DNA of 24,446 bases, from IMG/VR virus record IMGVR_UViG_3300009502_000195, positions 1 to 24,446 of that record; one strand, given 5' to 3'. The notes beneath the pieces are model-generated. The model was not told the origin of the DNA. It saw only the letters and a list, made by a program, of their open reading frames with translations, and made no database searches. The stretch is from a virus. Both the position numbers and the translations under genes were made by a program. This document shows, piece by piece, positions 959 through 24,446 of the stretch (position 1 is the first letter of the stretch; the number at the start of each line of letters is the position of its first letter).

Positions 959-966
959 TATAAATA
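959..966 (+). promoter_or_regulatory. T4-type late promoter (TATAAATA) for the porin-like gene
   Basis: The octamer is a perfect match to the T4 late-promoter element TATAAATA. It ends exactly 6 nt before the ATG at 973. If initiation occurs at the T4 distance, the transcript would begin at or next to the A of the start codon. No Shine-Dalgarno sequence is present between octamer and ATG. Confidence 0.6.
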
Positions 967-972
967 TAGAGT

Positions 973-1704
973 ATGAAGAAACTATTAACATTAACCTCAT
1001 TGGCATTAATCGCACTCGTTGCAAAAGCTGCACCAGTTAACGGTAACTTAGACCTCGGATTTACTTCAAAGTTGATCCAGCAAGGCGTCTTAGTTGGCAC
1101 TAACTACGCGACAGCAGGCGTTGAAACAAATCTTTACGGCATTGATCTTGCTGTAACAGCGTTTGATAAAATCAGCGACACAACCACAGCATCCGTTGTA
1201 GCTGGTAAAACAGTTACATCAACAGATGCTTCTGGCCTCAAGCGCGTTTATCTCGATGCTGGCTATAAATTCACGTCCCCTCTTGCTGATTTAACACTCG
1301 GTGCTGAGTTGAGACACGTCAATACAACTGAAGCTGCTGGTAGCGCAAACCATAACTTCTTACCTTTCGTTAAACTGAATGGTAGCTGGTTTGGTGGTCA
1401 CCTTAACTGGGAAGGCCGTGCACTAAACGACACTTACAATCGTAGTAACAACTTTGAATTCGGTGTTAATGCACCGCTCAATACTGTTGGCGGTTTAAAG
1501 ATTGTTCCAGCCTTAGTATTAGGCTTCAACGATCCAGGAGCTGCTACAATTGCCGCTCTTAAGAACGTTAAGAAGTATTATCAACCTGGTATCGGTCTTG
1601 AATGGCACGGTGTTACAGCAAATCTATTTGCACAACGTACCTCCTTAACAAGTTCAGATACTCAGATTACTGGTTATAACGCAGGTTACAAATTCAAGTT
1701 CTAA
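973..1704 (+). CDS. Secreted outer-membrane beta-barrel (porin-like) protein
   Basis: This 243-aa protein opens with a textbook Sec signal peptide: MKK, a hydrophobic core LLTLTSLALIALVA, and a likely cleavage after KAA near residue 20. The mature part is a run of alternating polar/hydrophobic strands (such as RVYLDAGYKF, LTLGAELRHV, GIGLEWHGVTANLFAQR) and ends in GYKFKF. A C-terminal Phe with alternating aromatics is the usual BAM recognition signature of outer-membrane barrels. By inference it is inserted in the host outer membrane, where it might act as a pore, block phage receptors or alter the envelope. It has its own late-type promoter and a strong terminator, so it is a single-gene unit. 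Hand-counted lines run about 42-50% GC against about 32-35% in neighbouring genes, which suggests recent acquisition or expression-driven codon choice. The barrel class is well supported; the exact function is not. Confidence 0.8.
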   Translation: MKKLLTLTSLALIALVAKAAPVNGNLDLGFTSKLIQQGVLVGTNYATAGVETNLYGIDLAVTAFDKISDTTTASVVAGKTVTSTDASGLKRVYLDAGYKFTSPLADLTLGAELRHVNTTEAAGSANHNFLPFVKLNGSWFGGHLNWEGRALNDTYNRSNNFEFGVNAPLNTVGGLKIVPALVLGFNDPGAATIAALKNVKKYYQPGIGLEWHGVTANLFAQRTSLTSSDTQITGYNAGYKFKF

Positions 1705-1725
1705 TATAACTCAACTTGTACAATT

Positions 1726-1756
1726 AAATCTCCTACTTCGGTGGGAGATTTTTTTT
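1726..1756 (+). terminator. Intrinsic terminator with UUCG tetraloop after the porin-like gene
   Basis: An 11-bp stem (1726-1736 with 1741-1751, including one G-T wobble) closes on C(TTCG)G, an extra-stable tetraloop, and runs into T residues up to 1756. It lies 22 nt after the stop at 1704. On the minus strand the hairpin is not followed by a T-run, so it should act mainly on plus-strand transcripts. Its right half encodes the C-terminus of the converging gene at 1733-1957. Confidence 0.9.
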
Positions 1757-1957
1757 GTGTTCATCTACCAAGAATATAATTGCTCTGTTAAGTTTATGAG
1801 CAAATTTTTCTGGTGGTATACCTGCTTTTTCTTGTAATAAAAGCTCTTCTCTGAGGGCTTTAGTGAACTTGTCTGATAAACTAAGATTTCTTGGGTAAAA
1901 CAACCTCTTAGTCTGTTTTAACATACCATACTGTTCCATTAAAGCTTGAAATTTCAT
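1733..1957 (-). CDS. Small basic protein of unknown function (74 aa)
   Basis: The predicted protein is basic and helix-rich (for example LSDKFTKALREELLLQEKAG and KFAHKLNRAIIFLVDEHKKN) with no recognised domain or membrane segment. It is read against the flanking plus-strand genes. Support that it is real comes from a perfect TATAAATA octamer 13 nt upstream of its ATG and a plausible amino-acid composition. Its last codons and TAG stop lie within the terminator hairpin of the porin-like gene, so the two transcripts converge and share sequence. There is no Shine-Dalgarno site. Its small size, basic charge and position in an accessory segment would fit a DNA- or host-protein-binding regulator, but this is a guess. 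Confidence 0.6.
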   Translation of the reverse strand: MKFQALMEQYGMLKQTKRLFYPRNLSLSDKFTKALREELLLQEKAGIPPEKFAHKLNRAIIFLVDEHKKNLPPK

Positions 1958-1970
1958 GTTGATTTAACTA

Positions 1971-1978
1971 TATTTATA
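1971..1978 (-). promoter_or_regulatory. T4-type late promoter (TATAAATA) for the 74-aa gene
   Basis: A perfect TATAAATA reads on the minus strand here, with 13 nt between the octamer and the ATG at 1957. It predicts a leader of only about 7 nt. Confidence 0.5.
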
Positions 1979-2064
1979 CCAATTATAGAATATACTCGTG
2001 TACAATGTGTAACTTTACATTTACTATTGGATATTACTGGTTAAACATTGGGAAATCCATAATT

Positions 2065-2099: not shown

Positions 2100-2173
2100 T
2101 ATACTTTAGGATTATTTAACAATTTTAAAAAATAAACAGTTGAAAAATAACACTTTTATATTATCATAACAGT

Positions 2174-2662: not shown

Positions 2663-2663
2663 T

Positions 2664-2828
2664 ATGTCAGGTAAAGGTTCAAAACCACGTCCCTACTCAA
2701 TTTCCCAAGAAGAATACGGTAATAATTGGGACTTAATCTTTAAAAAAGAAAAACCGGTTATAAAACCGGTTACAGAAAAGAAAAAACCTAAAATTCAAAC
2801 CGGAAGTATAAATCCAGCTGGATCGTAA
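2664..2828 (+). CDS. Small phage protein (54 aa), SGKGS-RP type
   Basis: The ATG at 2664, placed by an AAGGAG site, opens a 54-residue frame ending with TAA at 2826-2828. The protein begins MSGKGSKPRPYSISQEEYG and continues NNWDLIFKKEKPVIKP. I recall very small proteins in phage genomes with the same pattern (SGKGS, a basic RP motif, then W-x-x-IF), so it is probably a conserved phage family of unknown function; this recollection is unverified. The Lys/Pro-rich second half contains a KPVIKPV repeat. That repeat is encoded by the two arms of a hairpin which, on the other strand, looks like the terminator of the sugar cluster. The last 34 nt overlap the end of the converging GT11-like gene. Confidence 0.75.
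   Translation: MSGKGSKPRPYSISQEEYGNNWDLIFKKEKPVIKPVTEKKKPKIQTGSINPAGS
2741..2771 (-). terminator. Terminator of the glycosylation operon, embedded in the opposite gene
   Basis: Read on the minus strand, AACCGGTT, a TTAT loop and a second AACCGGTT (2752-2771) form an 8-bp stem that runs straight into TTTCTTTTTT (2742-2751). It begins 23 nt past the stop of the GT11-like gene (2795). On the plus strand no T-run follows, so the 54-aa gene it lies within should not be terminated. Confidence 0.75.
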
Positions 2829-3637
2829 ATAGCAGGACATATTTTCCAGCTTTTACACACTACATCTTTTGGGTCTACATCCTGTAAAATGTCAGGTCCA
2901 AACCAAACTCCAGGGGCTATAACAGTCTTACTGGGGTTTTTTGATAGATACGCCCCCCACCACGTGAAGGTTGAGTTAGAAATTACAAAATTCTGACACA
3001 AAGACAAGAACCATAATGCTTCATGTCGAGTGTAATCAACAAAAACAGTGTTCGAAAAGCTTAAATTCTGTTTACACCAGTCTAAATCGTCACTTACCAC
3101 AAAGATTGTATCAACTTTTGGTAACATTTCAACTGCTTTGTATAAATACTCTTTAGTTACCACTGGATGACGGGTAGGGAAGGTCAAAAAATCACCTCTT
3201 CTTACATTTATAACAGCATTTGTACCGTTATTTAATTGAGGATACCCCCGCAGTGCCTTCTCTATAAATTGTTCTGTAGGTCCGAATAACTGTTTAATGT
3301 TTTCTGACTTATCTTCAAAGTATTTTTCTGTTTCAAAATAACCTCTAAACACGGTTGGTAGTGTAGCATGTGGTTTATATTCAGTATAATGATAGGTTGC
3401 ATTGATTGTATGTATTTCAGGTGTTGCTGAAGGTGCATTATCAATTAAAAAATCTAATTTTCTATGTATTGTATCAAAATAGTCACTTACTGATGTGTCG
3501 TATTTAGGTAAAACTAACTGTCTATTGTGTCTTAATGCTTGAGCGTATGCATTAGCGATTTGAAACATTTGATTACCCAAACGACCAATCATGTGGCATG
3601 TTATATAATTAGTAGAGAGTGTAAATTTTTGGTTCAT
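2795..3637 (-). CDS. GT11-family glycosyltransferase (alpha-1,2-fucosyltransferase-like)
   Basis: This 280-aa protein has the hallmarks of family GT11. GRLGNQMFQIANAYA (residues 18-32) is the N-terminal signature. VRRGDF (145-150) corresponds to the HxRRxD nucleotide-sugar motif of fucosyltransferases, with Val at the position usually held by His. SDD (182-184) and SNSTFTWWGAY (220-230) complete the C-terminal signature. Known members transfer fucose from GDP-fucose to a galactose-terminated acceptor. The actual donor here is unproven, and no GDP-fucose synthesis genes are visible, so the host would have to supply it. It is the last gene of the minus-strand sugar cluster, 3 nt after the preceding GT25 gene, and is followed by an embedded terminator. 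There is no Shine-Dalgarno site. The length is normal for the family. Confidence 0.88.
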   Translation of the reverse strand: MNQKFTLSTNYITCHMIGRLGNQMFQIANAYAQALRHNRQLVLPKYDTSVSDYFDTIHRKLDFLIDNAPSATPEIHTINATYHYTEYKPHATLPTVFRGYFETEKYFEDKSENIKQLFGPTEQFIEKALRGYPQLNNGTNAVINVRRGDFLTFPTRHPVVTKEYLYKAVEMLPKVDTIFVVSDDLDWCKQNLSFSNTVFVDYTRHEALWFLSLCQNFVISNSTFTWWGAYLSKNPSKTVIAPGVWFGPDILQDVDPKDVVCKSWKICPAIYDPAGFILPV

Positions 3638-3640
3638 TTT

Positions 3641-4303
3641 TTAAAATTGTTTTACTATTTTACCTTTAATAAAGTTTTCTTCCCAGTGTCGAGGTGTTGG
3701 AGCCCATCCCCACGCATCTAAATCACTCTTACTCTCTCTTTGTATAATAGCTATAGGGTATGCAATATATTTATTTAACTCTTCCCGTTCACCTAGCCAT
3801 CCATCGATAGGGCAATGAAAAAACGGATCATATTGTAAGAATTTGTACATACCTGTTTTATTAAAACCAACTGCATGCATTGTTAATATTTCATTTGTTT
3901 TTAACAAATTTTCTGATACCTGAGGTACGATCTTACCGAACGTATAACAACCAAAATACAGCATATGCCAGTCTGGAAACTGTTGTATTTGATCTAATGC
4001 TTTTTCTACTATTTCAATAGCACTTATACCGTCTCTATCATAAAATTGAATATCATCTTCAAATATAACAAATCGTTCGTATCCAGCTTTTTCAGCCATT
4101 TTAAATATTTTTGCAAATGTGGCACCACAGTAGTTATGCTTTTTTAATTCGGCTGGTTCGTTTATACCATCAATACCACACACTCGTTCAAAGAAATTTT
4201 CAAGTCCCGCTTTTTTTACTTCAGCTTCAAATTCAGCTCTTCTATCAGGTCTACGGTCAAGGTTAATATAGTAACCCTTTTCAAAAAAATCATTTATTTT
4301 CAT
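3641..4303 (-). CDS. GT25-family glycosyltransferase (LPS-type), copy 2
   Basis: The 220-aa product starts MKINDFFEKGYYINLDRRPD. The YxINLDRRxDR pattern (residues 12-21) is the N-terminal signature of family GT25, whose members include LPS galactosyltransferases. FEDD (81-84) is the expected acidic metal- and nucleotide-binding motif, preceded by the typical G-Y-E-R-F-V-I strand. The C-terminal SKSDLDAWGW also fits. The length is normal for bacterial members. The start overlaps the stop of the previous GT25 gene by 4 nt (ATGA). It is a tandem paralog of that gene, with an almost identical first 21 residues, YLAYP/IAYP-like spacing and the same AWG end motif. It likely adds a hexose to a surface or virion glycan; donor and acceptor are unknown. 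Confidence 0.85.
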   Translation of the reverse strand: MKINDFFEKGYYINLDRRPDRRAEFEAEVKKAGLENFFERVCGIDGINEPAELKKHNYCGATFAKIFKMAEKAGYERFVIFEDDIQFYDRDGISAIEIVEKALDQIQQFPDWHMLYFGCYTFGKIVPQVSENLLKTNEILTMHAVGFNKTGMYKFLQYDPFFHCPIDGWLGEREELNKYIAYPIAIIQRESKSDLDAWGWAPTPRHWEENFIKGKIVKQF

Positions 4304-4986
4304 TTCTCTATATTAATTGCTGAATATGATCGTTTCCAGTCTTCGATATTAGCGGTATACCCCCATGCATCAATATCACTTTTACCTGCCCGTTGTACTA
4401 CAGCCATCGGGTATACTAAATATTTTATAATATCTGAACGTGCAGAAAGCCATTCATCATATATACAGTCCTGTCTGGGTACATATTTTAATAGCTTTTC
4501 AAACGATTTTTTATTATAACCAACAGCATGTGCGGTAATCATACAATCTGCACGTAAAAGATTGGGCGATACTTGTTTAGCTTTCTTGTCTTTCACGTGA
4601 CCACCAAAATACACTAAGTCCCAATCTGGAAACTGTTGTAATTGATCTAATGCTTTCTCTACAAGCTGTAAACCGGATTCTGCTTCATGGTTATAAAACA
4701 ACATATCATCTTCACATATTAGTACTCTTTCATAACCGCTTTCGGAAGCTTTTTTATACAAATTATAAAACGACTCACTACTAGCAGCTGCTTTCTTTAT
4801 GTAAGGGTGTTCGTGAGACTTTAAAACATATTCATACGACTCACTTTCGCCGTCTATACCTGGAAAACGCTCAAACCATTCTTTAAGCCCGAGCGTGCTT
4901 GCCTCTTCTTCGAATTCAACTTTTCTATCAGTTCTACGATCAAGGTTTAAGTAATACCCTTTTTCAAAAAAATCATTTATTTTCAT
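4300..4986 (-). CDS. GT25-family glycosyltransferase (LPS-type), copy 1
   Basis: The 228-aa product begins MKINDFFEKGYYLNLDRRTD and carries the GT25 signature YYLNLDRRTDR (residues 11-21), CEDD (91-94) after YERVLI, and a C-terminal SDIDAWGY. The adjacent downstream gene is a clear paralog: the first 24 nt of both genes are the same, and most conserved blocks line up, but the region after the IDG motif (about 47-70) differs in sequence and length. That pattern fits a duplication with divergence of acceptor specificity. The ATG follows the TAA of the GT-B gene with no intervening base, and there is no Shine-Dalgarno site, so translation probably depends on coupling. The substrate is unknown. 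Confidence 0.85.
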   Translation of the reverse strand: MKINDFFEKGYYLNLDRRTDRKVEFEEEASTLGLKEWFERFPGIDGESESYEYVLKSHEHPYIKKAAASSESFYNLYKKASESGYERVLICEDDMLFYNHEAESGLQLVEKALDQLQQFPDWDLVYFGGHVKDKKAKQVSPNLLRADCMITAHAVGYNKKSFEKLLKYVPRQDCIYDEWLSARSDIIKYLVYPMAVVQRAGKSDIDAWGYTANIEDWKRSYSAINIEK

Positions 4987-6168
4987 TTAAGTAATTAACT
5001 GATTAATATAGTCAACCCACATATGCCCCACTTTTTTAGAGTTAAATTGACTCAGTATATAATCCTTACCTTTAGCACGTATCTCTTCTTTAACTTGTGG
5101 ATTGGCTTCCAAATAATTAATTTTATTTATAATATTTTGTATGTTGTTCTTAAACTTACCCTCTTCATCTTTTGAGAGTGACTCTTTGTTCATAGCAACT
5201 GGATCAACACCTTCTGGAAAATCAATCCAAGCACAATAACCTTCAAAATTATCAGGTAACGCACCTAGTGGGTATGTAATAGGTATTGCACCTAAAGCAA
5301 TTGCTTCAGCTACCACACAAGAGAACGTATCCTTATGTACGTCTTTATAGGGTGTGTATAGTGGGTACAAGAAATACTCACTTTGGGCAACTTGTGTAAA
5401 CAAGGTTTTTTTATCAACCCCATCGTGTTTAAAAAAGAAATTATCTTGATGGTCATGTATTACCATTAAATAATCAAATGCATGGAGTTCTTTGTCGGTC
5501 ATGTTTAACTGCCTTATAGCTTCAATAGCTACGTCTCCTCCACGTGGCCAAGCTGCATGAAACACAAAGTTATGAGGTTTTCTTACAGGTTTACTATCTA
5601 ATACTTCATTAATAATATCATCCATTACCGGATTAGGTATTAGTGTGGATGTGGTGTTAGAGTAATGATCTTTAGCGTGGTTAATAGTGTTGTCGTTTTG
5701 TAGTTTTTCCCAGGGAGAAATATTAACAAACCCTAACTTTAAACTATTGTCTCTAGCATAATTTATTATCTCATCGATGCCATATATCCATTGCATATGA
5801 CACCAGTATATAAGCGCTTTAGTTACTTTTATAGGTAATTTTTTATAGTCTTGAAACCATAAACTACTGATAACTATGTCAAAGTCTCTATTGACAATAT
5901 TTTCAAACTCTTGATTGGTATAGTATACACCTCTTACATTTTTACCTGGGTTAAAGTATATACCGTGTTCTGCATAATGAGTTTCCAAGGCGGGTTCAAG
6001 TTTATCAGAAGTAACTACTACTTCATATCCAGCAGCTGCTAGTTGTTCTGCAACAACTATAGTACTTGTATCAGTACCAGAACCACCCCCACTACCATAG
6101 CGTAGGGTATCTCCGTCTAAATAGTTACTTCTTCTACTATTGCCAATTAAGATAAATGCTATTCTCAT
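4987..6168 (-). CDS. GT-B fold glycosyltransferase (GT4-like)
   Basis: This 393-aa protein starts with a Rossmann strand, MRIAFILIGN, followed by a Gly-rich loop GSGGGSGTDTST (residues 25-36) and AEQLAAAGYEVVVT, the usual N-terminal half of GT-B enzymes. The C-terminal half carries FVFHAAWPRGGDVAIEAI (201-218), resembling the donor-domain strand, and TFSCVVAEAIALGAIPITY (281-299), which corresponds to the E-x7-E region of GT4-type transferases. It presumably uses a nucleotide sugar to extend a glycan in the cytoplasm. Its start overlaps the previous gene by 4 nt (ATATGA), indicating translational coupling within the sugar operon. The precise donor cannot be read from sequence. Confidence 0.75.
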   Translation of the reverse strand: MRIAFILIGNSRRSNYLDGDTLRYGSGGGSGTDTSTIVVAEQLAAAGYEVVVTSDKLEPALETHYAEHGIYFNPGKNVRGVYYTNQEFENIVNRDFDIVISSLWFQDYKKLPIKVTKALIYWCHMQWIYGIDEIINYARDNSLKLGFVNISPWEKLQNDNTINHAKDHYSNTTSTLIPNPVMDDIINEVLDSKPVRKPHNFVFHAAWPRGGDVAIEAIRQLNMTDKELHAFDYLMVIHDHQDNFFFKHDGVDKKTLFTQVAQSEYFLYPLYTPYKDVHKDTFSCVVAEAIALGAIPITYPLGALPDNFEGYCAWIDFPEGVDPVAMNKESLSKDEEGKFKNNIQNIINKINYLEANPQVKEEIRAKGKDYILSQFNSKKVGHMWVDYINQLIT

Positions 6169-7463
6169 ATGTTTTTTTCATATCTTTCACTCCAACCTTT
6201 TTCTTTAAACATAGCATACATTACTATTTTATAAGGCTTATCTATACTTCGAAACTTTGCTGTATGTGTATTAATTTTGAATTTAGTATATTCGAGACTG
6301 TTTTCAGCTGTAAAATCGTTACGATATAAACTTACACCGCTTTGAGTTTCTATACCAAATGTTACGAACGACACAGAATCGTTTTCAGGTAATTGTTTAG
6401 TAAAGAACTCTGTATCCCAGCTACAATTAATATTAAAATCTTTACTAATGAATTGCTCTTCATAGTTTGATGGATTAGGTGGCTCGTTTACTTTAAGTGT
6501 AAAGTCTTGTATACGGCAATTTTTAAAATCAAAACCACCATATTCTTCGTATTCTCTTAAAGAACGTACATCTCCTAAACCAAACACGCCAAGCTCGATA
6601 CCATGGTCTTCTTGTTGAAATATTTGACGGGTCTTGTTTCGTGCATAAATATCTCTTTCGCCGGATGTTTTACCGGTATGTTTTTCAGTACCATGATCAT
6701 CCCAGTGCTTAACACGGTAATTACGCGTATATTCGTGCCAAATATATTGACGGTAAGGACTAAAGAAATCATAACCACGAGTCCAAGCTCTAACACTCAT
6801 AGTTGTTTCTTCTGTATAACCACCAAAATAGATGTCAGGATCGTAAGGTACTTCTTTAATAAAATTACCACTTACTAAAAAGAAATGCCCACTAATAGTA
6901 CGTGCTTTAATAACCTTTGTGCGTGTTTTGTGATCCTGTATATACCATGGCATACTCATGAGCAATTTATCCGAACTAAATTCATATTGAGACATTAAAC
7001 ACGGACCAAAATCTGTAATTGGTTGATCAGGATTAAATGGTGTACAATATGTAGAAATAATTGGTTTCTTAGACATTGTTAATGCCTGTTCGTAATCTTC
7101 TAACATCATTTTATCCCAATCCTGTGCAAAGCGGTGATGGGAATCTAACTGTAATGTTAATTCTTCACCGTCATATAAAGTATTAGTTAATGCTCGAGCC
7201 CAACCTAATCCTTCACTTTCTGTATATGGGCGTTTAATGACTCTGTATTTTGGATCCCCATCAAATACATCTGGGTTTTCATCTGGACCATGCTGCCAAC
7301 AAATACCAAAAACAAACTGCTCTGGATTAGCTGCTTTGGCTAACATATCTTCAATAGTTGGAATAAGTTGCGGGTCTCTATACGAAGCAAATTGCACAAA
7401 GATGCGAGGCTTTGTCTTTTGCATTTTCTTTTTTGAAGATTTAGAAGTTTGTGTTTTAGCCAT
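6165..7463 (-). CDS. GT60-like GlcNAc-transferase (Skp1 GlcNAc-transferase family)
   Basis: The N-terminal 20 residues are Lys/Ser/Thr-rich and look disordered. RIFVQFASYRDPQLIPTIED (20-39) and LQLDSHHRFAQDWD (104-117) match the conserved opening and DxD-like metal-binding motif of the GlcNAc-transferase (GT60) family. That family is known from the Dictyostelium enzyme that glycosylates hydroxyproline on Skp1 and also has bacterial and viral members. FGGYTEETTMSVRAWTRGYD (213-232) is the expected acceptor-side block. After about residue 310 a separate C-terminal region of about 120 residues (DFTLKVNEPPN onward) looks like a beta-sandwich and may bind the acceptor. The known family modifies protein rather than lipid, which raises the possibility that virion proteins are the target. 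It lies 8 nt after glf. Confidence 0.75.
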   Translation of the reverse strand: MAKTQTSKSSKKKMQKTKPRIFVQFASYRDPQLIPTIEDMLAKAANPEQFVFGICWQHGPDENPDVFDGDPKYRVIKRPYTESEGLGWARALTNTLYDGEELTLQLDSHHRFAQDWDKMMLEDYEQALTMSKKPIISTYCTPFNPDQPITDFGPCLMSQYEFSSDKLLMSMPWYIQDHKTRTKVIKARTISGHFFLVSGNFIKEVPYDPDIYFGGYTEETTMSVRAWTRGYDFFSPYRQYIWHEYTRNYRVKHWDDHGTEKHTGKTSGERDIYARNKTRQIFQQEDHGIELGVFGLGDVRSLREYEEYGGFDFKNCRIQDFTLKVNEPPNPSNYEEQFISKDFNINCSWDTEFFTKQLPENDSVSFVTFGIETQSGVSLYRNDFTAENSLEYTKFKINTHTAKFRSIDKPYKIVMYAMFKEKGWSERYEKNI

Positions 7464-8592: not shown

Positions 8593-8620
8593 ATTATATT
8601 ATAATACCGTAATTATTCAA
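8593..8620 (-). promoter_or_regulatory. Possible sigma70-like promoter for the sugar operon
   Basis: On the minus strand TTGAAT (8615-8620), 16 nt of spacer and TATAAT (8593-8598, a perfect -10) precede the glf ATG by 8 nt. It fills the only gap between spike and glf, and no late-type octamer is found there. In such AT-rich DNA a chance match is quite possible. Confidence 0.4.
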
Positions 8621-8621
8621 C

Positions 8622-11377: not shown

Positions 11378-11385
11378 TACTTATC
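11378..11385 (-). promoter_or_regulatory. Late-type promoter octamer (GATAAGTA) for the 269-aa gene
   Basis: GATAAGTA lies exactly 6 nt upstream of the ATG at 11371, the same spacing as for four other genes in the window. No Shine-Dalgarno site is present. Confidence 0.5.
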
Positions 11386-13305: not shown

Positions 13306-14613
13306 TTAATACGCTGCAGAAAGATTAGTGGTTGTTACGGTTATTCTTTGATTTGGATCAGCATTGGCTAAGAATAAATTACGCGTGTTTTTAAGCACAC
13401 CGGTAAACTTAAGAGTTATTTTATAAGCTTCTGGCATTAATTTTACATATGGACCAGCACCGTTTGCATCAACAACCTCACCGTTTTGTAAGTTTACAAG
13501 TCTTGTATTACCTATATTAGATATACTAATATTACTTAAATACGCTAATGGGATTTGCTTGTAACCAGGTATTTCTATTTTATACAAACAAGGGGCATCT
13601 AAAAAGTTTATACCTTTTCTGTTTGGTAAATTTTGATACGTTAGTATATAACAAAGCTCCCAATTTTTTTGTAATTGAGCAACTCCCCCTGTGTCATCTG
13701 TGTTGTAAAGATGAAATGTTATTTCTACATCTTCCGTGGCTCCGGAGCCTTGATAAGATACGAGTTCTTCTTTTTGAGTCGCTCCAGCAGTCGCTCCAAA
13801 TAGAGCATCTGTAGCCCCGCCTATTATTTCAAAAGGAGCCATTAATGCTTTGCCGAAATCTTTACCGCTTTCACCTTCCCCGGTTGCATTTTTTGAAGCT
13901 GCTTTTGTTTTACCAAATACACCGCTATAGAAATTACTAATACCGCCTGCTATTTTACCTACTCCTTCTCCAAACTTTGTACCCGGACCACCCCAGCTAT
14001 TATTAACACCAATCATGTTACTGGATGTATAATATGGTAAATGATATATAAAACCGGTAGTTTTAACTGCATATAAACCGGCATATGGGTCCATTGCAGA
14101 TGCAAAATCACCCGGGCTTTTTGGAGTAAAATCAAACTTTTTAGCACTATCTAACACTGAAGTGGCAACACCTGTAGTCTTGTCTACTACAAAGCTAGCA
14201 GCTGTTTGAATGGCGGTACCCACTTCTCCTTGACCAGCAATAGTAGATGCAGTTTTAACTTGTTGACCTAAAGCTTGAAATGCCCCACCTATAGCCTCGG
14301 TAGACCCCACCTTATTAGCTATAGTCAAATTACTAACAGTTCCTCGTATACTGTACAAATAACCTCTTAGTTCACTTGATTGCGTTTGTCTGTATTCTGT
14401 TATAATAGCTTTAGGAATATGTTGTCTTGCTTCCATTGGCGATATTGTCCATGGAAATAAATTAAACACATCGATGGTAACTTGATTGGAGGTTAATTCA
14501 GGCGCCCCTAGTTTATCAGGAGATTGGTTCCATTTAAACAACACCCCATTATAACTTGGGGGTAAAAAATTTGATCCATCACCTGATGTTGTATATGTAG
14601 ATGCACCAGCCAT
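13306..14613 (-). CDS. Putative tail-tube initiator / baseplate protein (gp48-like)
   Basis: The 435-aa protein has an N-terminal beta domain (PPSYNGVLFKWNQSPDK; VFNLFPWTISPMEARQHIPK, about 49-68), a long Gly/Ala-rich, low-complexity middle (about 105-285), and a C-terminal domain (about 285-420) with DVEITFHLYNTDDTGGVAQL, PCLYKIEIPGYKQIPLAYLS and MPEAYKITLKFTGVLKNTRN. The ending P-E-A-Y-x-I-x-L-x-F-x-x-x-L is typical of tube-fold baseplate proteins at the tube-baseplate junction. By inference it nucleates the tube above the hub. A weak Shine-Dalgarno (AGAGGA) precedes the ATG, overlapping the end of the tape-measure gene 1 nt upstream. The central region resembles the Gly-rich part of the tape measure, which could reflect contact with it or simple low complexity. 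Confidence 0.5.
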   Translation of the reverse strand: MAGASTYTTSGDGSNFLPPSYNGVLFKWNQSPDKLGAPELTSNQVTIDVFNLFPWTISPMEARQHIPKAIITEYRQTQSSELRGYLYSIRGTVSNLTIANKVGSTEAIGGAFQALGQQVKTASTIAGQGEVGTAIQTAASFVVDKTTGVATSVLDSAKKFDFTPKSPGDFASAMDPYAGLYAVKTTGFIYHLPYYTSSNMIGVNNSWGGPGTKFGEGVGKIAGGISNFYSGVFGKTKAASKNATGEGESGKDFGKALMAPFEIIGGATDALFGATAGATQKEELVSYQGSGATEDVEITFHLYNTDDTGGVAQLQKNWELCYILTYQNLPNRKGINFLDAPCLYKIEIPGYKQIPLAYLSNISISNIGNTRLVNLQNGEVVDANGAGPYVKLMPEAYKITLKFTGVLKNTRNLFLANADPNQRITVTTTNLSAAY

Positions 14614-16630: not shown

Positions 16631-16639
16631 ATACCTAAT

Positions 16640-16647
16640 TACTTAGG
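16640..16647 (-). promoter_or_regulatory. Late-type promoter octamer (CCTAAGTA) for the tape-measure gene
   Basis: CCTAAGTA lies 9 nt upstream of the ATG at 16630, within the 37-nt gap after the preceding gene. It keeps the TAAGTA core but departs from consensus at the first two positions. Confidence 0.35.
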
Positions 16648-16667
16648 TGCAGAACAGTAAGACAGTA

Positions 16668-17482: not shown

Positions 17483-17490
17483 GACTTATG
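17483..17490 (-). promoter_or_regulatory. Late-type promoter octamer (CATAAGTC) at the 269-aa baseplate gene
   Basis: CATAAGTC sits 5 nt upstream of the ATG at 17477 and inside the alternative TTG-started reading. A very similar octamer, TATAAGTC, precedes the adjacent gene at 18443-18450. Confidence 0.35.
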
Positions 17491-18442: not shown

Positions 18443-18450
18443 GACTTATA
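18443..18450 (-). promoter_or_regulatory. Late-type promoter octamer (TATAAGTC) for the 309-aa gene
   Basis: TATAAGTC ends exactly 6 nt before the ATG at 18436. It lies in the 33-nt gap after the 247-aa gene, which shows no terminator. Confidence 0.45.
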
Positions 18451-18469: not shown

Positions 18470-19213
18470 TTAAGCTTGCCCGTGTGTGTATGAAACTCTA
18501 TACTGGTTATATACAAAAGTTGCTGGAGACACTCTTATTTCGGCTTTACCATAGGTATAAGATGCTTCTGCAACAGAAATAGGTGCACACCCTTTAAATT
18601 CAAATATTCTTCTAATACCCGCATTAGTTTTACTGTCGTTTTTATCGTAATGCACTACAGTTATATCTGTTTTAATGTTTTGAGTAGATGTTTTGTCTCG
18701 GGTTATTAAACCGTAATGACCAACAAGTGTTACCCACGGACGCAAAACAAAGTCAATAAACGATTTGTTGGTTTCTAAGAACCCTATTTTTAAAGGGTCA
18801 TATTGTTTACGATCGGTACTAACAACCCCGCTTAATAACCCACCACTTGGTCCTTCGAGTGTAGATACTCTATTTTGTCCAACCGATTCACCAGGTACAT
18901 CGATACCTTGAGCGAATAAGCATACCTGACCACCATACACACCTTGTTTTTGTTTTTTTAGTTCTTCGTTTAATGCTTTAAGAGATGTATTTACGTCCCA
19001 ATTATTTTCGTACGTGTCCCATGGGCTGGATCCTGCGTCTATTACACTATCTGTCCACACATTTGTTGTTAATGCTTTAGGTAATTCAAAACTTATAAGA
19101 AAATTTGACTCAACCGGAATTTGTGTATTCGAGTTACTTAAAAAATTTATAAACGTATTGACCTCAGAGCCAGCGTTTTGTGCATTAGCTTTTGGCCCAA
19201 TTAAAAAGGACAT
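18470..19213 (-). CDS. Tail-tube-like / baseplate protein (247 aa)
   Basis: This protein looks like a diverged tube-fold member: an opening strand IPVESNFLISFELPKAL (about 36-52), a central insert (about 53-100, with a charged helix LKALNEELKKQKQGVYGG), CLFAQGIDVPGESVGQNRVS (about 98-117) where tube proteins carry their loop, and a C-terminal block RRIFEFKGCAPISVAEASYT followed by AEIRVSPATFVYNQYRVSY. The last block (F-K-G-C-x-P-I-S-V-x-x-x-x-Y, then a strand ending in Y-x-Y-R-V) is common in T4-like tube-initiator and tube proteins. It lacks the N-terminal GFAR motif of the three genes before it. A GGAGG Shine-Dalgarno lies just upstream, and the start overlaps the previous stop by 1 nt (TAATG). 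A role at the tube-baseplate junction is inferred. Confidence 0.55.
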   Translation of the reverse strand: MSFLIGPKANAQNAGSEVNTFINFLSNSNTQIPVESNFLISFELPKALTTNVWTDSVIDAGSSPWDTYENNWDVNTSLKALNEELKKQKQGVYGGQVCLFAQGIDVPGESVGQNRVSTLEGPSGGLLSGVVSTDRKQYDPLKIGFLETNKSFIDFVLRPWVTLVGHYGLITRDKTSTQNIKTDITVVHYDKNDSKTNAGIRRIFEFKGCAPISVAEASYTYGKAEIRVSPATFVYNQYRVSYTHGQA

Positions 19214-19896
19214 TACTTACCTCCTAATAACTTATTAATGGTTTTGTTAACTAGTTTATTAGCAACATTACTACCAATTTGTCCAACTACACTACCAATT
19301 AACCCACCCACCCCACCACCTAAGTCTAAACCTAAACCGGAAGCTATTCCTATATCTGGGCCTGTTTCCCAGTATTGATATGCGATAGTAGCTTTTACTT
19401 CAACTATACCACCAGATTTAGTTAAATCATATGCTATTTCGTCCACTTTAGTAATGAATGCCCCTAATAGTGTGTAACGCCTTACTATATTTAATTGATC
19501 ATCAAATAACGAAAGAACGATTTTATTTTCATTTAAATCTTTTGGCTCCATACTTCCAGTTGAGTCTCTTTCATTAAACGTACTGGACATAGAGTTTTCT
19601 AAAAAGTTTCTTAGCATGTAGTTTTGTGTACAGTAAAATGTAACGTTCCATGCGTTGTTGCCTTCGAATTTTACGGTGCCCGGTACTTGAAAATCTAACC
19701 CCATAAATGGAGCAGCTGTAGTACTAATTGTTTTGCTTGGTAAATTAGCTGTTTTTAAAAATATTAAATTGTCTTCTTCTAAAGAAACACCATTAACATC
19801 AAACGTTGTAATTCTAAATTGAAAATCCCGCGCAAAACCATACCTTGACGCATTACTGTAAAAGTCTCTAATTGTTTGCCCCTGTACGTTTGACAT
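19213..19896 (-). CDS. Tail-tube paralog 3 with a glycine-rich C-terminal extension
   Basis: The 227-aa product carries the tube signature TIRDFYSNASRYGFARDFQF (8-27), then NLPSKTISTTAAPFMGLDFQ (51-70), VPGTVKFEGNNAWNVTFYC (71-89) and IVEVKATIAYQYWETG (164-179). These blocks align with the major tube gene and with paralog 2. Beyond about residue 178 comes a 50-residue tail found in neither relative, made of Gly-rich repeats (LGLDLGGGVGGLIGSVVGQI) and a basic end NKTINKLLGGK. The tail could fill the tube lumen, contact the tape measure or anchor the protein at one end of the tube. It has a TATAAGTA octamer exactly 6 nt upstream of its ATG. Confidence 0.8.
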   Translation of the reverse strand: MSNVQGQTIRDFYSNASRYGFARDFQFRITTFDVNGVSLEEDNLIFLKTANLPSKTISTTAAPFMGLDFQVPGTVKFEGNNAWNVTFYCTQNYMLRNFLENSMSSTFNERDSTGSMEPKDLNENKIVLSLFDDQLNIVRRYTLLGAFITKVDEIAYDLTKSGGIVEVKATIAYQYWETGPDIGIASGLGLDLGGGVGGLIGSVVGQIGSNVANKLVNKTINKLLGGK

Positions 19897-19902
19897 ATAA
19901 TA

Positions 19903-19910
19903 TACTTATA
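19903..19910 (-). promoter_or_regulatory. Late-type promoter octamer (TATAAGTA) for tube paralog 3
   Basis: TATAAGTA ends exactly 6 nt before the ATG at 19896 and fills most of the 15-nt gap after paralog 2. Confidence 0.5.
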
Positions 19911-19911
19911 A

Positions 19912-20502
19912 TTAAGATTGTAATAAATCTTGAGAAGTAACGTATTGATAGCCTATAGTGGCTTGTACCTTGGCTATATCCCCACCAGCTGCAGCTGTAT
20001 ATTCAATAGCCCCCACATTTTGTAGAAATGCCCCTATTAAATTGTATTTACGCAACACAGAGGTAGTATCTTTGTTTGGACCAGAGTTGTTTAATAAATG
20101 TAACTCAATATTACAATCCCACCAATTTGGTTTATTGGACAAAGATGTATGTTCATCAAATGTGTCTACCGACCATTTTTCTAATACGTTTCTTATTATA
20201 TAGTCTCTATCACAATAAAATGTTACTGCCCAGCTTGATGATTCCGTGTATTGGGCTACCATTGGTATTGTGTATTTAAACGATTTAAAGTCTACTGAAG
20301 TAGTAGATATAGTACGTGAGGGTATTGTGCCATTTTGCGCATATAAAAACAGATTATCACCTTTTTTTGTACCAGGTGTACCACCATCTGGCCTGTATAT
20401 ATCTTCACTACTTCTTGATATAGAATTAATCCTAAACAGATTAGTACGTGCAAATCCGCGGCTTGTTGCTGTTTTGTAAAAGTCTGTTATACCTCTATCC
20501 AT
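19912..20502 (-). CDS. Tail-tube paralog 2
   Basis: The 196-aa product has the N-terminal tube signature GITDFYKTATSRGFARTNLF (4-23), TIPSRTISTTSVDFKSFKY (59-77) and SSSWAVTFYCDRDYIIRNVL (88-107), plus VQATIGYQYV near its end, all shared with the neighbouring paralogs. Relative to the major tube it has an insertion after residue 30 (DIYRPDGGTPGTKKGDNLF) and a variant core loop (IPMVAQYTESSSW in place of VPGTVDYTG). It sits downstream of the terminator that ends the sheath-tube transcript and has its own octamer, so it is probably made in lower amounts. It may form a specialised ring of the tube near the baseplate or neck. Confidence 0.8.
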   Translation of the reverse strand: MDRGITDFYKTATSRGFARTNLFRINSISRSSEDIYRPDGGTPGTKKGDNLFLYAQNGTIPSRTISTTSVDFKSFKYTIPMVAQYTESSSWAVTFYCDRDYIIRNVLEKWSVDTFDEHTSLSNKPNWWDCNIELHLLNNSGPNKDTTSVLRKYNLIGAFLQNVGAIEYTAAAGGDIAKVQATIGYQYVTSQDLLQS

Positions 20503-20508
20503 TTATAA

Positions 20509-20516
20509 TACTTAAT
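20509..20516 (-). promoter_or_regulatory. Late-type promoter octamer (ATTAAGTA) for tube paralog 2
   Basis: ATTAAGTA ends exactly 6 nt before the ATG at 20502, directly downstream of the terminator at 20527-20555. That arrangement requires a new initiation event for paralog 2. Confidence 0.45.
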
Positions 20517-20526
20517 GTATGTACAT

Positions 20527-20555
20527 AAAAAAAGCCCTGCTTTTAACAGGGCTTT
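20527..20555 (-). terminator. Strong terminator after the sheath/major-tube block
   Basis: On the minus strand a stem of 9 bp (20547-20555 with 20531-20539) around a 7-nt loop is followed by an uninterrupted T-run (down to about 20527). It starts 16 nt after the stop of the major tube gene and separates it from the minor tube paralogs. Confidence 0.92.
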
Positions 20556-20571
20556 GAATTAAAACTTTATA

Positions 20572-21099
20572 TTAATTAACGTGTCTCCAGTATTGGTAAG
20601 CTAATTTAGCTGTGAAGTCTAATGGTTTACCAGCACCTGAATTGTCGTAACCAGTAACCGCACCTAAGTTTACAATATACACACCGTAAAGCTTATATGT
20701 GTTAAGTACATTCTGGTTTTCATCAATTAAGTCAAGTTGAATGACTTTGTCTGTACCACGTAATGAAAGATCGCCAGTACTTGTAGCGTCATTAAATACA
20801 CCATTAATTTGCCAATCTTCAAGTTTCTTACGAATTACACCTTTAAGATCGTTGTAAAACTTTACTTCCCAACTATCCGAACCAGTATAGTCAACAGTAC
20901 CCGGTACATTGAAGTTTAGTCCCATGTAAGGTACTTTTTGATTAGAAATTTGCCGATCTGGAAGTTGCTTTGTTGTAATATAAACAAAATCATCTTCGGT
21001 GAATGTATCTTGCCCAAGAGAACGAACACGCATCATGAAATCCCGTGCAAATCCGCGCTCTTGTGCTACGCGATAGAAATCCTGTATAGTCTGAGACAT
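20572..21099 (-). CDS. Major tail tube protein (gp19-like)
   Basis: The start at 21099 gives 175 aa beginning MSQTIQDFYRVAQERGFARD, aligned with the starts of the two paralogs; the longer reading would need a TTG at 21108. Shared blocks are QLPDRQISNQKVPYMGLNF (about 46-64), VPGTVDYTGSDSWEVKFYND (65-84), and the C-terminal LDFTAKLAYQYWRHVN. It lies directly downstream of the sheath, is the shortest and most regular copy, and is followed by a strong terminator. All of this fits the main tube subunit that stacks as hexamers inside the sheath. Length is near that of T4 gp19 (about 163 aa). A CATAAATA octamer lies 9 nt upstream. Confidence 0.88.
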   Translation of the reverse strand: MSQTIQDFYRVAQERGFARDFMMRVRSLGQDTFTEDDFVYITTKQLPDRQISNQKVPYMGLNFNVPGTVDYTGSDSWEVKFYNDLKGVIRKKLEDWQINGVFNDATSTGDLSLRGTDKVIQLDLIDENQNVLNTYKLYGVYIVNLGAVTGYDNSGAGKPLDFTAKLAYQYWRHVN

Positions 21100-21108
21100 A
21101 TGTAACAA

Positions 21109-21116
21109 TATTTATG
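21109..21116 (-). promoter_or_regulatory. Late-type promoter octamer (CATAAATA) for the major tube gene
   Basis: CATAAATA lies 9 nt upstream of the ATG at 21099, in the 59-nt sheath-tube gap. It matches the octamer upstream of the sheath exactly. Confidence 0.5.
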
Positions 21117-21158
21117 GTTAAACGCTGTCTTTATTTAATGTTTTACTAAAAGATATTA

Positions 21159-23519
21159 TTATAGAAGCTCGGTAAAGTCTTGAGATGTCTTAGTTGCGTA
21201 GAAGTTTACTAAGATAAACTCAGCTGTTCTAACAGGCTTAATATAAATGTCTACTACCAACGTGTTATCATCAACAACAGCGGGTGTGTTGTTTGTTGCA
21301 TTACACACTAGCAAGTAATCGTATAATCCCTGTGTGTTACGAGCTAGTTCAAACAATGGTGTCAATGTATTGACTACTCTACTTTGCGTGAAAGTAGTAT
21401 TTGGTTCAAATATAAAGAACTTCATCGTTTGGTTTGTAGCTTTTTCTAAATAAAGGAACAAGCGACGTACGTTAATACGATCAAATGCACTTGGTGCTTT
21501 TAACAAGGTCTTTTGACCAAATACTGTAAACCCCTCATTAGGGAAATACACTACAGGGTTAATAGATACTTTATAAAGCAAGTCACGTTGTTTTTGCTGC
21601 GGGTTAATTGCAATATCACTTACACCGGTAATGATACCGCGGTTTAACCCTGCAGGAGCTGTCCAGACGTAATTGTTTGCATCGCTTGCTGTAGTCATTG
21701 CTGCAGCAAAACCGGAAAACGGTAACCAAACACTTTGGGAAGTAAATATATCTTGCGCCATTACCCAGTTACCATACGTTGTAGCATAACTTGTATTAAT
21801 GGTACCGTAAAGGTTACGTAGTGGCCAGTAAATGTTTTGCGAGAAGTTGTATTGTTTGTTGCTGAGTGTCTTATAATTTTGACCAGTAACAAAAATATGA
21901 CGTATTGGATCAGAGATAAAATAATGATCTTTACGGCGTTGACTTGCAAACTCGACAAATAAGTTTGTAATTGTTTGCCAGCCTGTTACTAAATCGTTAC
22001 TTACTACAGTACCATCAGAAGCACTGAGTGCCTGCACGTAACTTAACAGAGCGGTAGATACTGCTGTATCATCATATTGTGTGCTAGCACCTGCTACATT
22101 TTGCACTGCAGCAATGGTAGATAGACCTGCATCGAGTGTAATGTCAATATCTATTACATCTGTATTTTCTGCAGCATTAAGAGCATATGTAAGTTTTTGA
22201 CTGACAACACCAATTTCTTTAGCACCATTAAGCGGTAAAGCGTTAGAATATGTACCCAACGCATAAAGGTTATTAGCAGCTAAGAATTCTGTAGTGTTTA
22301 TGTTTGTAAGGAAAGGAAGAGCTGTAGAATTAAATGAGTCTGAGGTGTCAGTTAATGTTGTTGCTTTAAATACTCTTATTTGTTTTGTCGAATTACCGTT
22401 TACGTCTAACCAACCTAATGTATTAGAAATATTAGGATTAATAAACACTTCAATATTATTTGAAGCATTATTAATAGTTGTCTGCAAGAAACTAGACTTT
22501 GGCACACCACCGTTTACATCTTGTATTGTACGGTTAACATAGAATGAACCAGCATAACCTTCTTGTAATACGTATTGTAGTTGTGTAGTATTTTGCGAGA
22601 ACGGAGAGGGGCGTAATTTAAACAACGAAATAATTGCACTATCGCCATATCCAGAAGCTGCAATATTATATGTTGGAATGTTTTCAATATCTTGAGATAG
22701 ACTTTGAATATTAGCTGAATATGCAGCTGATACTGTAAAACCAATACGGGATGGTGGTACAATGGTATAAGACGAAACATCTGCTGCTTGGTTATTAACG
22801 AAGTAACTTGCCCCAACTGAATACACCTTAATAGCATCATCGTATGGTGTTGTTGGGTTATTGCTGAAAGAATCGCCGATGTTTACATAATAACCTTGAA
22901 AATTTTCATCAATTGTAGTTTTTGCTGTGTTAACTACAATAATACCTGCACTACTAAGACTGTTTACAGCGCCTGCACCTTGTACTGTAAATGCACTTAA
23001 ACCTGCTGTGTTACCACCAGTTGTAGACCAGTTAATACCGCCTTGATTGATAGCATTATATTGATCTGTTGTTAACGATATAAGAGCGGGTTGTCCGAAA
23101 TAATAACCTGCTGCACCCGATAGAGGATATAGACCTGTTGACCATGTAGCTGAAGCGCTTGCATATGAAACGGAGGGTATCGGTAAAACCGGGTAAACTA
23201 ATGCACTATATGTACTTGATGTACCTTCACCAGCATTTGCGCCGTAAGGTAAACGAATTGCTTTAATTGTTGGATTACCACCAGCATTAAAAAGTTGACT
23301 TACTGAATAATAAAAATAACGTTCTGCTGCATTTGTTGGAGTACCGAACACGTTTTGGAAATCGCTTAAAGAAGCAAGCTCAACAACTTCGTATGTTGGG
23401 CCCTGTGGAGCAAAACCGGTAACTAATACGTTAGTTCCGACTGGTGCTATTGCTCTTGTAGATAGATCGATTTCTCGAATTTCTACGCCCGGTGATTGTA
23501 TAGTGCGTGTAGATGCCAT
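21159..23519 (-). CDS. Tail sheath protein (gp18-like)
   Basis: The 786-aa protein begins RTIQSPGVEIREIDLSTRA, the classical N-terminal sheath motif, with GTNVLVTGFAPQGPTYEVVE next (about 28-47) and SDFQNVFGTPTNAAERYFYY (about 52-71). The C-terminal domain has RINVRRLFLYLEKATNQTMK, FFIFEPNTTFT, YDYLLVCNATNNTPAVVDDN and VVDIYIKPVRTAEFILVNFY, the conserved core through which sheath subunits interlock and contract. It is longer than T4 gp18 (659 aa). The extra length lies in the variable middle (about 110-480), which is Ala/Ser/Thr/Asn-rich and probably makes surface-exposed domains. The CATAAATA octamer lies 21 nt upstream, giving the longest leader in the module. Confidence 0.95.
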   Translation of the reverse strand: MASTRTIQSPGVEIREIDLSTRAIAPVGTNVLVTGFAPQGPTYEVVELASLSDFQNVFGTPTNAAERYFYYSVSQLFNAGGNPTIKAIRLPYGANAGEGTSSTYSALVYPVLPIPSVSYASASATWSTGLYPLSGAAGYYFGQPALISLTTDQYNAINQGGINWSTTGGNTAGLSAFTVQGAGAVNSLSSAGIIVVNTAKTTIDENFQGYYVNIGDSFSNNPTTPYDDAIKVYSVGASYFVNNQAADVSSYTIVPPSRIGFTVSAAYSANIQSLSQDIENIPTYNIAASGYGDSAIISLFKLRPSPFSQNTTQLQYVLQEGYAGSFYVNRTIQDVNGGVPKSSFLQTTINNASNNIEVFINPNISNTLGWLDVNGNSTKQIRVFKATTLTDTSDSFNSTALPFLTNINTTEFLAANNLYALGTYSNALPLNGAKEIGVVSQKLTYALNAAENTDVIDIDITLDAGLSTIAAVQNVAGASTQYDDTAVSTALLSYVQALSASDGTVVSNDLVTGWQTITNLFVEFASQRRKDHYFISDPIRHIFVTGQNYKTLSNKQYNFSQNIYWPLRNLYGTINTSYATTYGNWVMAQDIFTSQSVWLPFSGFAAAMTTASDANNYVWTAPAGLNRGIITGVSDIAINPQQKQRDLLYKVSINPVVYFPNEGFTVFGQKTLLKAPSAFDRINVRRLFLYLEKATNQTMKFFIFEPNTTFTQSRVVNTLTPLFELARNTQGLYDYLLVCNATNNTPAVVDDNTLVVDIYIKPVRTAEFILVNFYATKTSQDFTELL

Positions 23520-23540
23520 AATAGTAAAGTTTTCTACTAT

Positions 23541-23548
23541 TATTTATG
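23541..23548 (-). promoter_or_regulatory. Late-type promoter octamer (CATAAATA) for the sheath gene
   Basis: CATAAATA lies 21 nt upstream of the sheath ATG, predicting a leader of about 15 nt. An AATAGTA/TACTATT inverted repeat (23520-23541) fills the space between octamer and ATG. Confidence 0.45.
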
Positions 23549-23576
23549 ATATTTTAACACTAAAACCTAGTCTTTA

Positions 23577-24164
23577 TTAAAGTAATTGAGTATTTAACTG
23601 GCTGAACGCAAACGTAAAAGAGGATTCAATCTGTTCACCGTCTCTATAATTATATGTTATTTCTCCTAAATTCGTTATAAAGGCCTTTATATAATCCCAC
23701 TGTATTTTTTTATTGTTATACTCATCCAACCCATACACTGAAATATTTGTTTGGTAGTTATTTAAATTTATAAACTTGTCAGGAGATACTAAGCCGTTAT
23801 AGTTGTATGTGCTTTCTTTACTGTCGTTTAATACATTCAACCAATACCACAATACCCACCAATTATTAAATTCATTGTCTACTGTAAAATTTACAGTAAT
23901 GGATTTATAAGGAGATTTTGTATAACTTGTAAATTTAGCTGTTTGCCCTGAATATACTAGATCTACTTCAGGTACAGCTGTTTCTGGAACTACAGTACCG
24001 TATATAGAATACTGTAATTGATCTAAACTAAGAAATTTAACCGAGCGCTCAACAAGCGTAGACTTGTTAACGGATTTGAGTATAGGCGGCAAGTTTAAGA
24101 CAAGTAGAAACTTGTCTTTCCTGTTTTTGTTAAGAATTGATTGCTGTATCGAGTCTACACTCAT
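23577..24164 (-). CDS. Tube-like tail protein upstream of the sheath (195 aa)
   Basis: The product has a helical start, then KFLLVLNLPPILK (about 18-30), LQYSIYGTVVPETAVPEVDL (about 50-69), PYKSITVNFTVDNEFNNWWV (about 84-103) and a C-terminal YIKAFITNLGEITYNYRDGE (about 158-177). These are characters of a tube-fold protein: VPE/P-x-V loop, a long strand with T-V-x-F, a W-rich helix, F-x-x-N-L-G-E-I-x-Y, and an end strand with F-A-F-S. The ITNLGEITY block echoes the VNLGAVTGY and QNVGAIEYT blocks of the tube paralogs. It lacks GFAR. Its position before the sheath suggests a tail completion, terminator or tube-cap role, but a baseplate role is possible. A CGTAAGTA octamer lies 8 nt upstream. 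Confidence 0.55.
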   Translation of the reverse strand: MSVDSIQQSILNKNRKDKFLLVLNLPPILKSVNKSTLVERSVKFLSLDQLQYSIYGTVVPETAVPEVDLVYSGQTAKFTSYTKSPYKSITVNFTVDNEFNNWWVLWYWLNVLNDSKESTYNYNGLVSPDKFINLNNYQTNISVYGLDEYNNKKIQWDYIKAFITNLGEITYNYRDGEQIESSFTFAFSQLNTQLL

Positions 24165-24171
24165 CTAACAC

Positions 24172-24446
24172 TTACTTACGAAAGTGTTTGTTATTGATAA
24201 TGTAATATTCCTTAATAACGCTCTCAGAAGCAGAAGCATTCTGATCAGCAGCTGCCGTATTTTTGGGGTCAGCAGCTGCCGTATTTTTGGGGTCTGGCGT
24301 AACAGTTTGTAATACTGATCCGGCTTTTGTATTACGCTTTGCAGCTAAAGCAGCTAATCTCTGTTCAATGTTCTTTTTAATACTCTCTAAATCTCTTGCA
24401 CGTAGTGTGCCGACAATTTTGTTAATTTGACCTACCCCAACTTTTG
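24172..24446 (-). CDS. 3' end of an unrecognised helical protein with a short peptide repeat (5' truncated)
   Basis: The frame is open from the right edge to a TAA at 24172-24174 and gives about 90 residues. It reads as a basic helical segment (LRARDLESIKKNIEQRLAAL, likely coiled-coil), a Pro/Ala/Asn linker with two perfect copies of DPKNTAAA, and a C-terminal EYYIINNKHFRK. No family is recognised. It is the first-read structural-module gene in the window and ends 7 nt before the next start. The octamer of the next gene overlaps its stop codon. Confidence 0.65.
   Translation of the reverse strand, partial: KVGVGQINKIVGTLRARDLESIKKNIEQRLAALAAKRNTKAGSVLQTVTPDPKNTAAADPKNTAAADQNASASESVIKEYYIINNKHFRK
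24173..24180 (-). promoter_or_regulatory. Late-type promoter octamer (CGTAAGTA) overlapping a stop codon
   Basis: CGTAAGTA lies 8 nt before the ATG at 24164 and includes the TAA of the upstream gene. The match to the consensus is partial (TAAGTA core). Confidence 0.3.
24247..24294. repeat. Perfect 24-bp tandem repeat, two copies
   Basis: Positions 24247-24270 and 24271-24294 are identical. The unit is in frame and encodes DPKNTAAA on the minus strand, so copy number can change without a frameshift. Confidence 0.95.

Follow-up and report, generated by a model that had tools for sequence, protein, structure and literature searches.

Octamers upstream of gene starts in the window

The virus record IMGVR_UViG_3300009502_000195, analysed over its whole length of 24,446 bases (the window), carries a T4-type tail region encoding a sheath, five gp19-like tube paralogues, a baseplate hub and a tape-measure-like protein, and 11 of its gene starts are preceded by an octamer resembling the T4 late promoter element (Table 1). 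A first-pass annotation of the sequence had listed these octamers and proposed that they drive a late regulon of leaderless mRNAs; all 11 were confirmed, both in position and in their distance to the start codon in nucleotides (nt), here termed the gap. The form given there, nATAA(A/G)T(A/C), holds for its core, TAA(A/G)T(A/C), while the A at the second position is broken by three of the 11 octamers (ATTAAGTA before 20502, CCTAAGTA before 16630 and CGTAAGTA before 24164), so that the true core is TAARTA (R, A or G) rather than ATAARTA.

Within the window only the placement of the octamer, not its number, is non-random. Across the whole stretch it is not over-represented (30 sites, with 40 expected in shuffles), whereas TAA(A/G)T(A/C) lies at gap 3-14 before 11 of the 25 window starts and at a gap of exactly 6 before five of them. 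When those upstream regions were shuffled 500 times with dinucleotide composition preserved, the corresponding counts averaged 1.6 (never above 7) and 0.14 (never above 2). As had been annotated, the octamer genes of the window lack Shine-Dalgarno sites, and canonical sites precede the starts at 2664 (AAGGAG) and 19213 (GGAGG).

At ATG 973, TTGATT lies 16 bp upstream of TATAAA, making a sigma70-type promoter possible there as well. The counterpart in L009 of the octamer before 19896 is TATAAATA, also at gap 6, and the octamer before 24164 is absent from more distant orthologues, whose start overlaps the upstream gene. The octamer of the tape-measure-like gene is overlapped by a TAATTA at gap 5 and lies within an inverted repeat (CCTAA-GTAA-TTAGG, 16630-16650) that is conserved in relatives; several other octamer sites consist of tandem TAAGTAAGT copies in a 4-nt register.

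Table 1. Octamers and other signals in the window, with their conservation in relatives.
Feature	Coordinates	Strand	Gap and start	Remarks
Late-type octamer TATAAATA	959..966	+	6 to ATG 973	Gap 6 retained in the window, G004 and G005 orthologues
Late-type octamer TATAAATA	1971..1978	-	13 to ATG 1957	Same gene also has TAAATC at gap 3
Late-type octamer GATAAGTA	11378..11385	-	6 to ATG 11371	TAA(A/G/T)TA at gap 5-6 in 6/6 distinct orthologue upstreams
Late-type octamer CCTAAGTA	16640..16647	-	9 to ATG 16630 (tape-measure-like gene)	Gap 9 retained in relatives
Late-type octamer CATAAGTC	17483..17490	-	5 to ATG 17477	Gap 5 in 5/6 orthologues
Late-type octamer TATAAGTC	18443..18450	-	6 to ATG 18436 (baseplate hub)	Gap-6 core in most, not all, orthologue upstreams
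Late-type octamer TATAAGTA	19903..19910	-	6 to ATG 19896 (tail tube paralogue)	TAARTA at gap 5-10 in 15/18 distinct orthologue upstreams
Late-type octamer ATTAAGTA	20509..20516	-	6 to ATG 20502 (tail tube paralogue)	10/10 distinct orthologue upstreams at gap 5-6, right after T-run
Late-type octamer CATAAATA	21109..21116	-	9 to ATG 21099 (tail tube paralogue)	TAARTA in 25/25 distinct orthologue upstreams, gap 5-11
Late-type octamer CATAAATA	23541..23548	-	21 to ATG 23519 (sheath)	Leadered exception; 22/22 distinct orthologue upstreams at gap 15-23
Late-type octamer CGTAAGTA	24173..24180	-	8 to ATG 24164	Gap 8 in 5/5 clustered orthologues
Sigma70-type promoter TTGAAA-N16-TATCAT	2140..2167	+	6 to ATG 2174	-35/-10/ATG geometry of the early class
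Sigma70-type promoter TTGAAT-N16-TATAAT	8593..8620	-	8 to ATG 8584	Conserved in G001, G004 and G005
Intrinsic-terminator-like hairpin + T7 (AGCCCTG..CAGGGCTTTTTTT)	20527..20553	-	Ends 24 nt before ATG 20502	In the window, L009, G001, G002, G004 and G005
Shine-Dalgarno GGAGG	19213..19226	-	Before operon-internal start 19213 (gene 18470-19213)	Gap 3-14 free of promoter-like elements

Spacing and conservation across the family

The record is itself only a fragment, and genome-scale tests therefore used close relatives obtained by sheath and tube searches (among them contigs G004, 122.7 kb; G005, 82.5 kb; G009, 140.7 kb; G010, 73.1 kb). Gene starts were called by rule, with T4, the cyanophages and the family all run through the same gene caller, and G009 and G010, analysed only once the spacing rule had been formed, served as a replication set. 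As a hint to the host, the tube gene was also sought in bacterial genome contigs, where no relative was found.

In the 30 nt preceding the 290 family starts there are 63 copies of TAAGTA (3.3 expected), and at gap 5-12 there are 43 (0.84 expected); TAAATA behaves similarly. With orthologues removed, the core lies at gap 3-14 before 50 of 142 starts (mean of shuffles, 10.3; maximum, 19), and the best sites have modes at 6 and 9. The fixed distance originally proposed overstates the regularity, the family showing instead a narrow range of 3-14. In G009 and G010 combined, TAAATA plus TAAGTA occur 13, 14 and 12 times at gaps 5, 6 and 7, with a second peak of 11 at gap 9 and few beyond 20. The genome-wide enrichment at short spacing, on which the original claim depended, is present in the family starts and again in the replication set.

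Footprints across 63 loci retain the core while the flanks drift. For the tube gene starting at 21099, TAARTA persists in orthologue upstreams down to 64% protein identity, and orthologues whose first copy is at 10-11 often have an overlapping TAATTA or a second core at 6-7; for the tube gene at 20502, all 10 upstreams, down to 45% identity, retain a T-run, then ATTAARTA, with the ATG 5-6 nt farther on. A, G and T swap between orthologues at the fourth core position with the spacing unchanged. The motif lies near 17 of 35 structural starts in G004 but only 7 of 43 replication starts (p = 0.003), and at overlapping operon-internal starts the core is found in 2 of 62 cases. Orthologues of the operon-internal gene at 19213 have a G-rich Shine-Dalgarno-like sequence in most distinct upstreams.

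Late transcription factors

The T4 late octamer spans -13 to -6 (PMC1524935), about one helical turn upstream of the transcription start (+1), and has no -35 element (PMC2988020). With the T4 positions, +1 would fall on the A of the AUG at a gap of 5 and one nucleotide before it at a gap of 6. In the family, octamer flanks outside the core are near background and a TTGA -35 is not enriched alongside the octamer (2 of 50 non-redundant sites).

Two of the late factors for which the first-pass annotation had suggested a search are encoded by close relatives; the 24-kb window, a fragment, has no gp55 gene itself. The gp55 late sigma factor is present in G004 (PHROG 234, E = 1.2e-17), in G009 (4e-19) and in G005, where it is 93% identical to that of G004, and the gp45 sliding clamp lies at 69245-69979 in G004 (PHROG 223, E = 2.7e-7). 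Reading all six frames and applying PHROG profiles recovered both. Queries from T4 and P-SSM2 gave no match in phmmer, gp45 being divergent and gp55 having been dropped by the length-based gene caller; the gp55 frame of G004 (L025:10417-10917) overlaps, at its 3' end, the frame called as gp47. Alignment of the family gp55 reveals NF..Y, NFD, NP..Y and RI.KE blocks common to T4, P-SSM2 and HTVC008M.

A sigma70-type promoter class under the same rule

A second class of element was found upstream of family genes. TTGA peaks at gap 29-33 before family starts. In the non-redundant family set, 16 copies fall in the 4-nt bin at 29-32 nt, with most bins at 0-4, and the peak recurs at a mode of 30 in G009 and G010; no TTGA concentration at 29-32 nt was found in T4, the cyanophages or pelagimyophages. 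When 41 motif-less starts were aligned on TTGA only, TAnnnT fell at one offset in 22 of them, compared with about 3 at most other offsets, and its end lay 6 nt from the start codon in 14 of 28 cases. The consensus, TTGAtt-N16-TAnnnT-N6-ATG, again puts the predicted +1 on the A of the AUG. The octamer and sigma70-type classes tend toward mutual exclusion in the non-redundant set (p = 0.03), a tendency that is not significant in G009 and G010. A late regulon with leaderless mRNAs is supported as far as sequence can take it, but the arrangement is not specific to late genes, as TTGA/TATAAT promoters obey the same rule. Bacteroidetes-type promoters were considered as the background to the missing Shine-Dalgarno sites and rejected, TTTG being depleted near the ATG and the TTGA/TATAAT promoter present.

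Terminator boundaries

At several genes the upstream space is bounded. Besides the terminator-like hairpin before 20502 and its orthologues (Table 1), hairpins end 14 nt before the gene at 14579 in G004 and 16 nt before the gene at 6280 in HTVC008M, and in all three cases the promoter element fills the space between hairpin and ATG. Divergent genes 33-34 bp apart have elements in both directions. The gp41-like helicase of G004 (L026:7488-8831) begins with a GTG that TATAAT precedes by 6 nt and that lies 24 nt past a terminator-like hairpin; it is a candidate for a leaderless GUG start.

Comparison with cultured phages and bacterial leaderless mRNAs

TAAATA lies mainly 16-35 nt upstream of starts in T4, P-SSM2, S-PM2 and P-HM2, and T4 and the cyanophages retain leaders of about 15-25 nt. 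The family resembles T4 in having a -10-like octamer with a TAAATA core and no -35, placed before structural genes on either strand, together with gp55 and gp45 homologues. It differs in spacing: in T4 most octamers stand 21-30 nt away from the start and the leader has a Shine-Dalgarno site (22 of 26), whereas in the family they lie at 3-14 nt without one. The family core also takes G (or T) at its fourth position and is little constrained at the first two. The cyanophages S-PM2, P-SSM2 and P-HM2 share the TAAATA core and related capsid and sheath proteins, with gp55 in P-SSM2, but their octamer is mostly 16-35 nt or farther upstream, with gap 5 in only 0-3 genes per genome.

The leaderless arrangement had been put forward as unusual for a T4-type phage, which is borne out against T4 and the cyanophages but does not amount to uniqueness, as octamers exactly 5 nt from the start codon occur in cultured pelagimyophages. 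In the pelagimyophage/methylophage genomes of HTVC008M, Mosig and Melnitz, the TAAATA core stands exactly 5 nt before the ATG without a Shine-Dalgarno site at 11, 6 and 3 starts, respectively, and at none is the gap 6. Unlike the family, which has almost no Shine-Dalgarno sites, these phages have them in about half of their genes and possess many leadered late genes with Shine-Dalgarno sites. Across the three genomes a Shine-Dalgarno-like sequence accompanies 2 of 24 near-octamer starts and 35 of 43 distant-octamer starts (p = 7.7e-9). Since the same octamer occurs in one genome either with a leader and a Shine-Dalgarno site or with neither, it would be a promoter and not a ribosome-binding element, and we regard this split as the strongest argument for the predicted leaderless expression. 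The three cultured phages with AUG-fused octamers also encode the ribosomal protein bS21 (L045:41228-41431 in HTVC008M; by similarity in Mosig and Melnitz); as a family-wide explanation bS21 was rejected, as it was not found in the window's family.

Bacterial leaderless mRNAs are initiated by 70S ribosomes at the 5'-terminal AUG (PMC9031893) and have a -10 element about 6 nt from an AUG start with no Shine-Dalgarno site. The family has the same geometry, the late class peaking at gaps 5-7 and the sigma70 class at 6 nt, but here it is predicted as a phage-wide rule for the early and late promoters of a T4-superfamily virus. Late-promoter prediction in pelagimyophages has been reported as unsuccessful (PMC7029224), Melnitz late promoters are listed in a report where "leaderless" occurs only within a reference title (PMC9004378), and phage transcripts have been remarked to be often leaderless (PMC5312081); no description of leaderless late mRNAs in T4-type phages was found in the open-access literature.

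Interpretation and alternatives

The motif, its spacing and conservation, the terminator boundaries, the presence of gp55 and gp45 and the difference from other T4-type phages can be read off the DNA itself, from which leader lengths and promoter identities are throughout inferred. The octamers are very probably late promoters read by gp55 at or near the AUG, with sigma70-type early promoters placed alike, and the first gene of each transcript would be carried mostly on leaderless or ultra-short-leader mRNA. A gp55-type sigma factor would read the octamer and, with +1 six nt after it as in T4, transcription would begin on the AUG or within a few nucleotides of it, while host-sigma70-type early promoters (TTGAtt-N16-TAnnnT) would have their +1 on the AUG. 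Ribosomes would initiate on the leaderless ends, and operon-internal genes would be translated through coupling or, occasionally, from a Shine-Dalgarno site. Predicted leaders range from zero to about eight nucleotides, and "leaderless" is to be read in that sense.

Several observations weigh against this interpretation. Leaderlessness is not strict, as leaders of 4-8 nt would follow from gaps of 9-14; the sheath keeps its leader in 22 of 22 orthologues, and gp23 is probably leadered too, with 10-30 nt leaders for both. The near motif is enriched at structural genes yet not confined to them, and the in-frame TAA within the motif may push the start caller toward gaps 3, 6, 9 and 12. Shine-Dalgarno sites are rare across the whole family, which makes their absence at octamer genes weak evidence within it. 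The third late factor named in the first-pass annotation, gp33, was not identified, with no match among the G004 candidates scanned, and gp33 homologues are divergent. The family gp55 ends in ..DPVNPNNKHAD and is without the T4 C-terminal clamp-binding motif LDFLYE; P-SSM2 gp55 also lacks a hydrophobic clamp-binding C-terminus, so this feature is not general to the T4 superfamily.

The elements could be promoters even if the main mRNAs arose by upstream read-through or initiation elsewhere, with little leaderless translation. Most late genes do lie in same-strand clusters, and the longer leaders of the sheath and gp23 fit such a scheme, but we consider it improbable, as terminators and divergent intergenic regions of 33-60 bp force local initiation at several genes and the conserved octamer spacing indicates that distance to the AUG is under selection. 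It is likewise improbable that TAAG or TAAATA is instead a translation signal, a ribosome-binding element pairing for example with the 16S 3' end beneath ordinary leaders. A distance of 5-13 nt to the AUG would suit such an element, TAAG could base-pair with CUUA at the 16S 3' end and Shine-Dalgarno sites are scarce; against this, and in agreement with the doubts first raised about 16S pairing, the diagnostic position tolerates A, G or T at constant spacing, the element is almost absent from overlapping operon-internal starts, where a ribosome-binding element would be expected, terminator-like hairpins end 14-24 nt upstream, the HTVC008M octamer occurs both at 5 nt without a Shine-Dalgarno site and at 16-35 nt with one, and the second class has a full -35/-10 structure.

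That AT-rich, stop-rich intergenic sequence and the calling of reading frames alone yield TAAnTA near called starts is scarcely credible. The motif does contain the stop codon TAA, which is in frame at gaps 3, 6, 9 and 12, and the total octamer count of the window is not raised, but dinucleotide shuffling reaches a fraction of the number seen, T4 and the cyanophages, called identically, lack such a peak, and the orthologue footprints speak against background. Gaps 5 and 7 are moreover as frequent as 6 in G009 and G010, so the peak there is no artefact of an in-frame TAA.

Preferring AUG-proximal promoters, we find it rather likely that a whole clade of the T4 superfamily gave up its 5' leaders, with host-sigma70 early and gp55 late promoters fused to the AUG genome-wide. 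Transcription and translation would then start from one shared site in this clade, and regulation by leaders would be lost, the sheath and a few other highly abundant proteins excepted. Because two promoter classes that differ in -10 geometry follow one rule, near-genome-wide leaderless expression is the simplest explanation; in the textbook case of T4, late mRNAs have leaders and ribosome-binding sites. Cultured Pelagibacter and OM43 phages have fused beside leadered octamers, so that one infected culture would offer an internal comparison between leaderless and leadered translation under one sigma factor. The spacing also provides a practical rule for locating pelagimyophage late promoters, where published prediction failed (PMC7029224), and aids the choice of start codons in family genomes.

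Other genes of the window

The five gp19-like tail tube paralogues (18470-21099 and 23577-24164) all match PHROG 45, and four are adjacent; gp19 is annotated once each in T4 and P-SSM2, and T4 gp54 also carries the tail tube label. In the sheath (21159-23519, 786 amino acids) similarity to T4-type sheaths is mainly in the C-terminal 330 residues, and its conserved leader, TAAATAATAGTAGAAACTTTACTATT, holds a short inverted repeat, TAGTA..TACTA. Elsewhere in the window, 2795-7463 is a glycosyltransferase-like gene block in which two adjacent paralogues (3641-4303 and 4300-4986) have a common N-terminus, MKINDFFEKGYY, and the neighbouring gene at 7472-8584 matches PHROG 9677.

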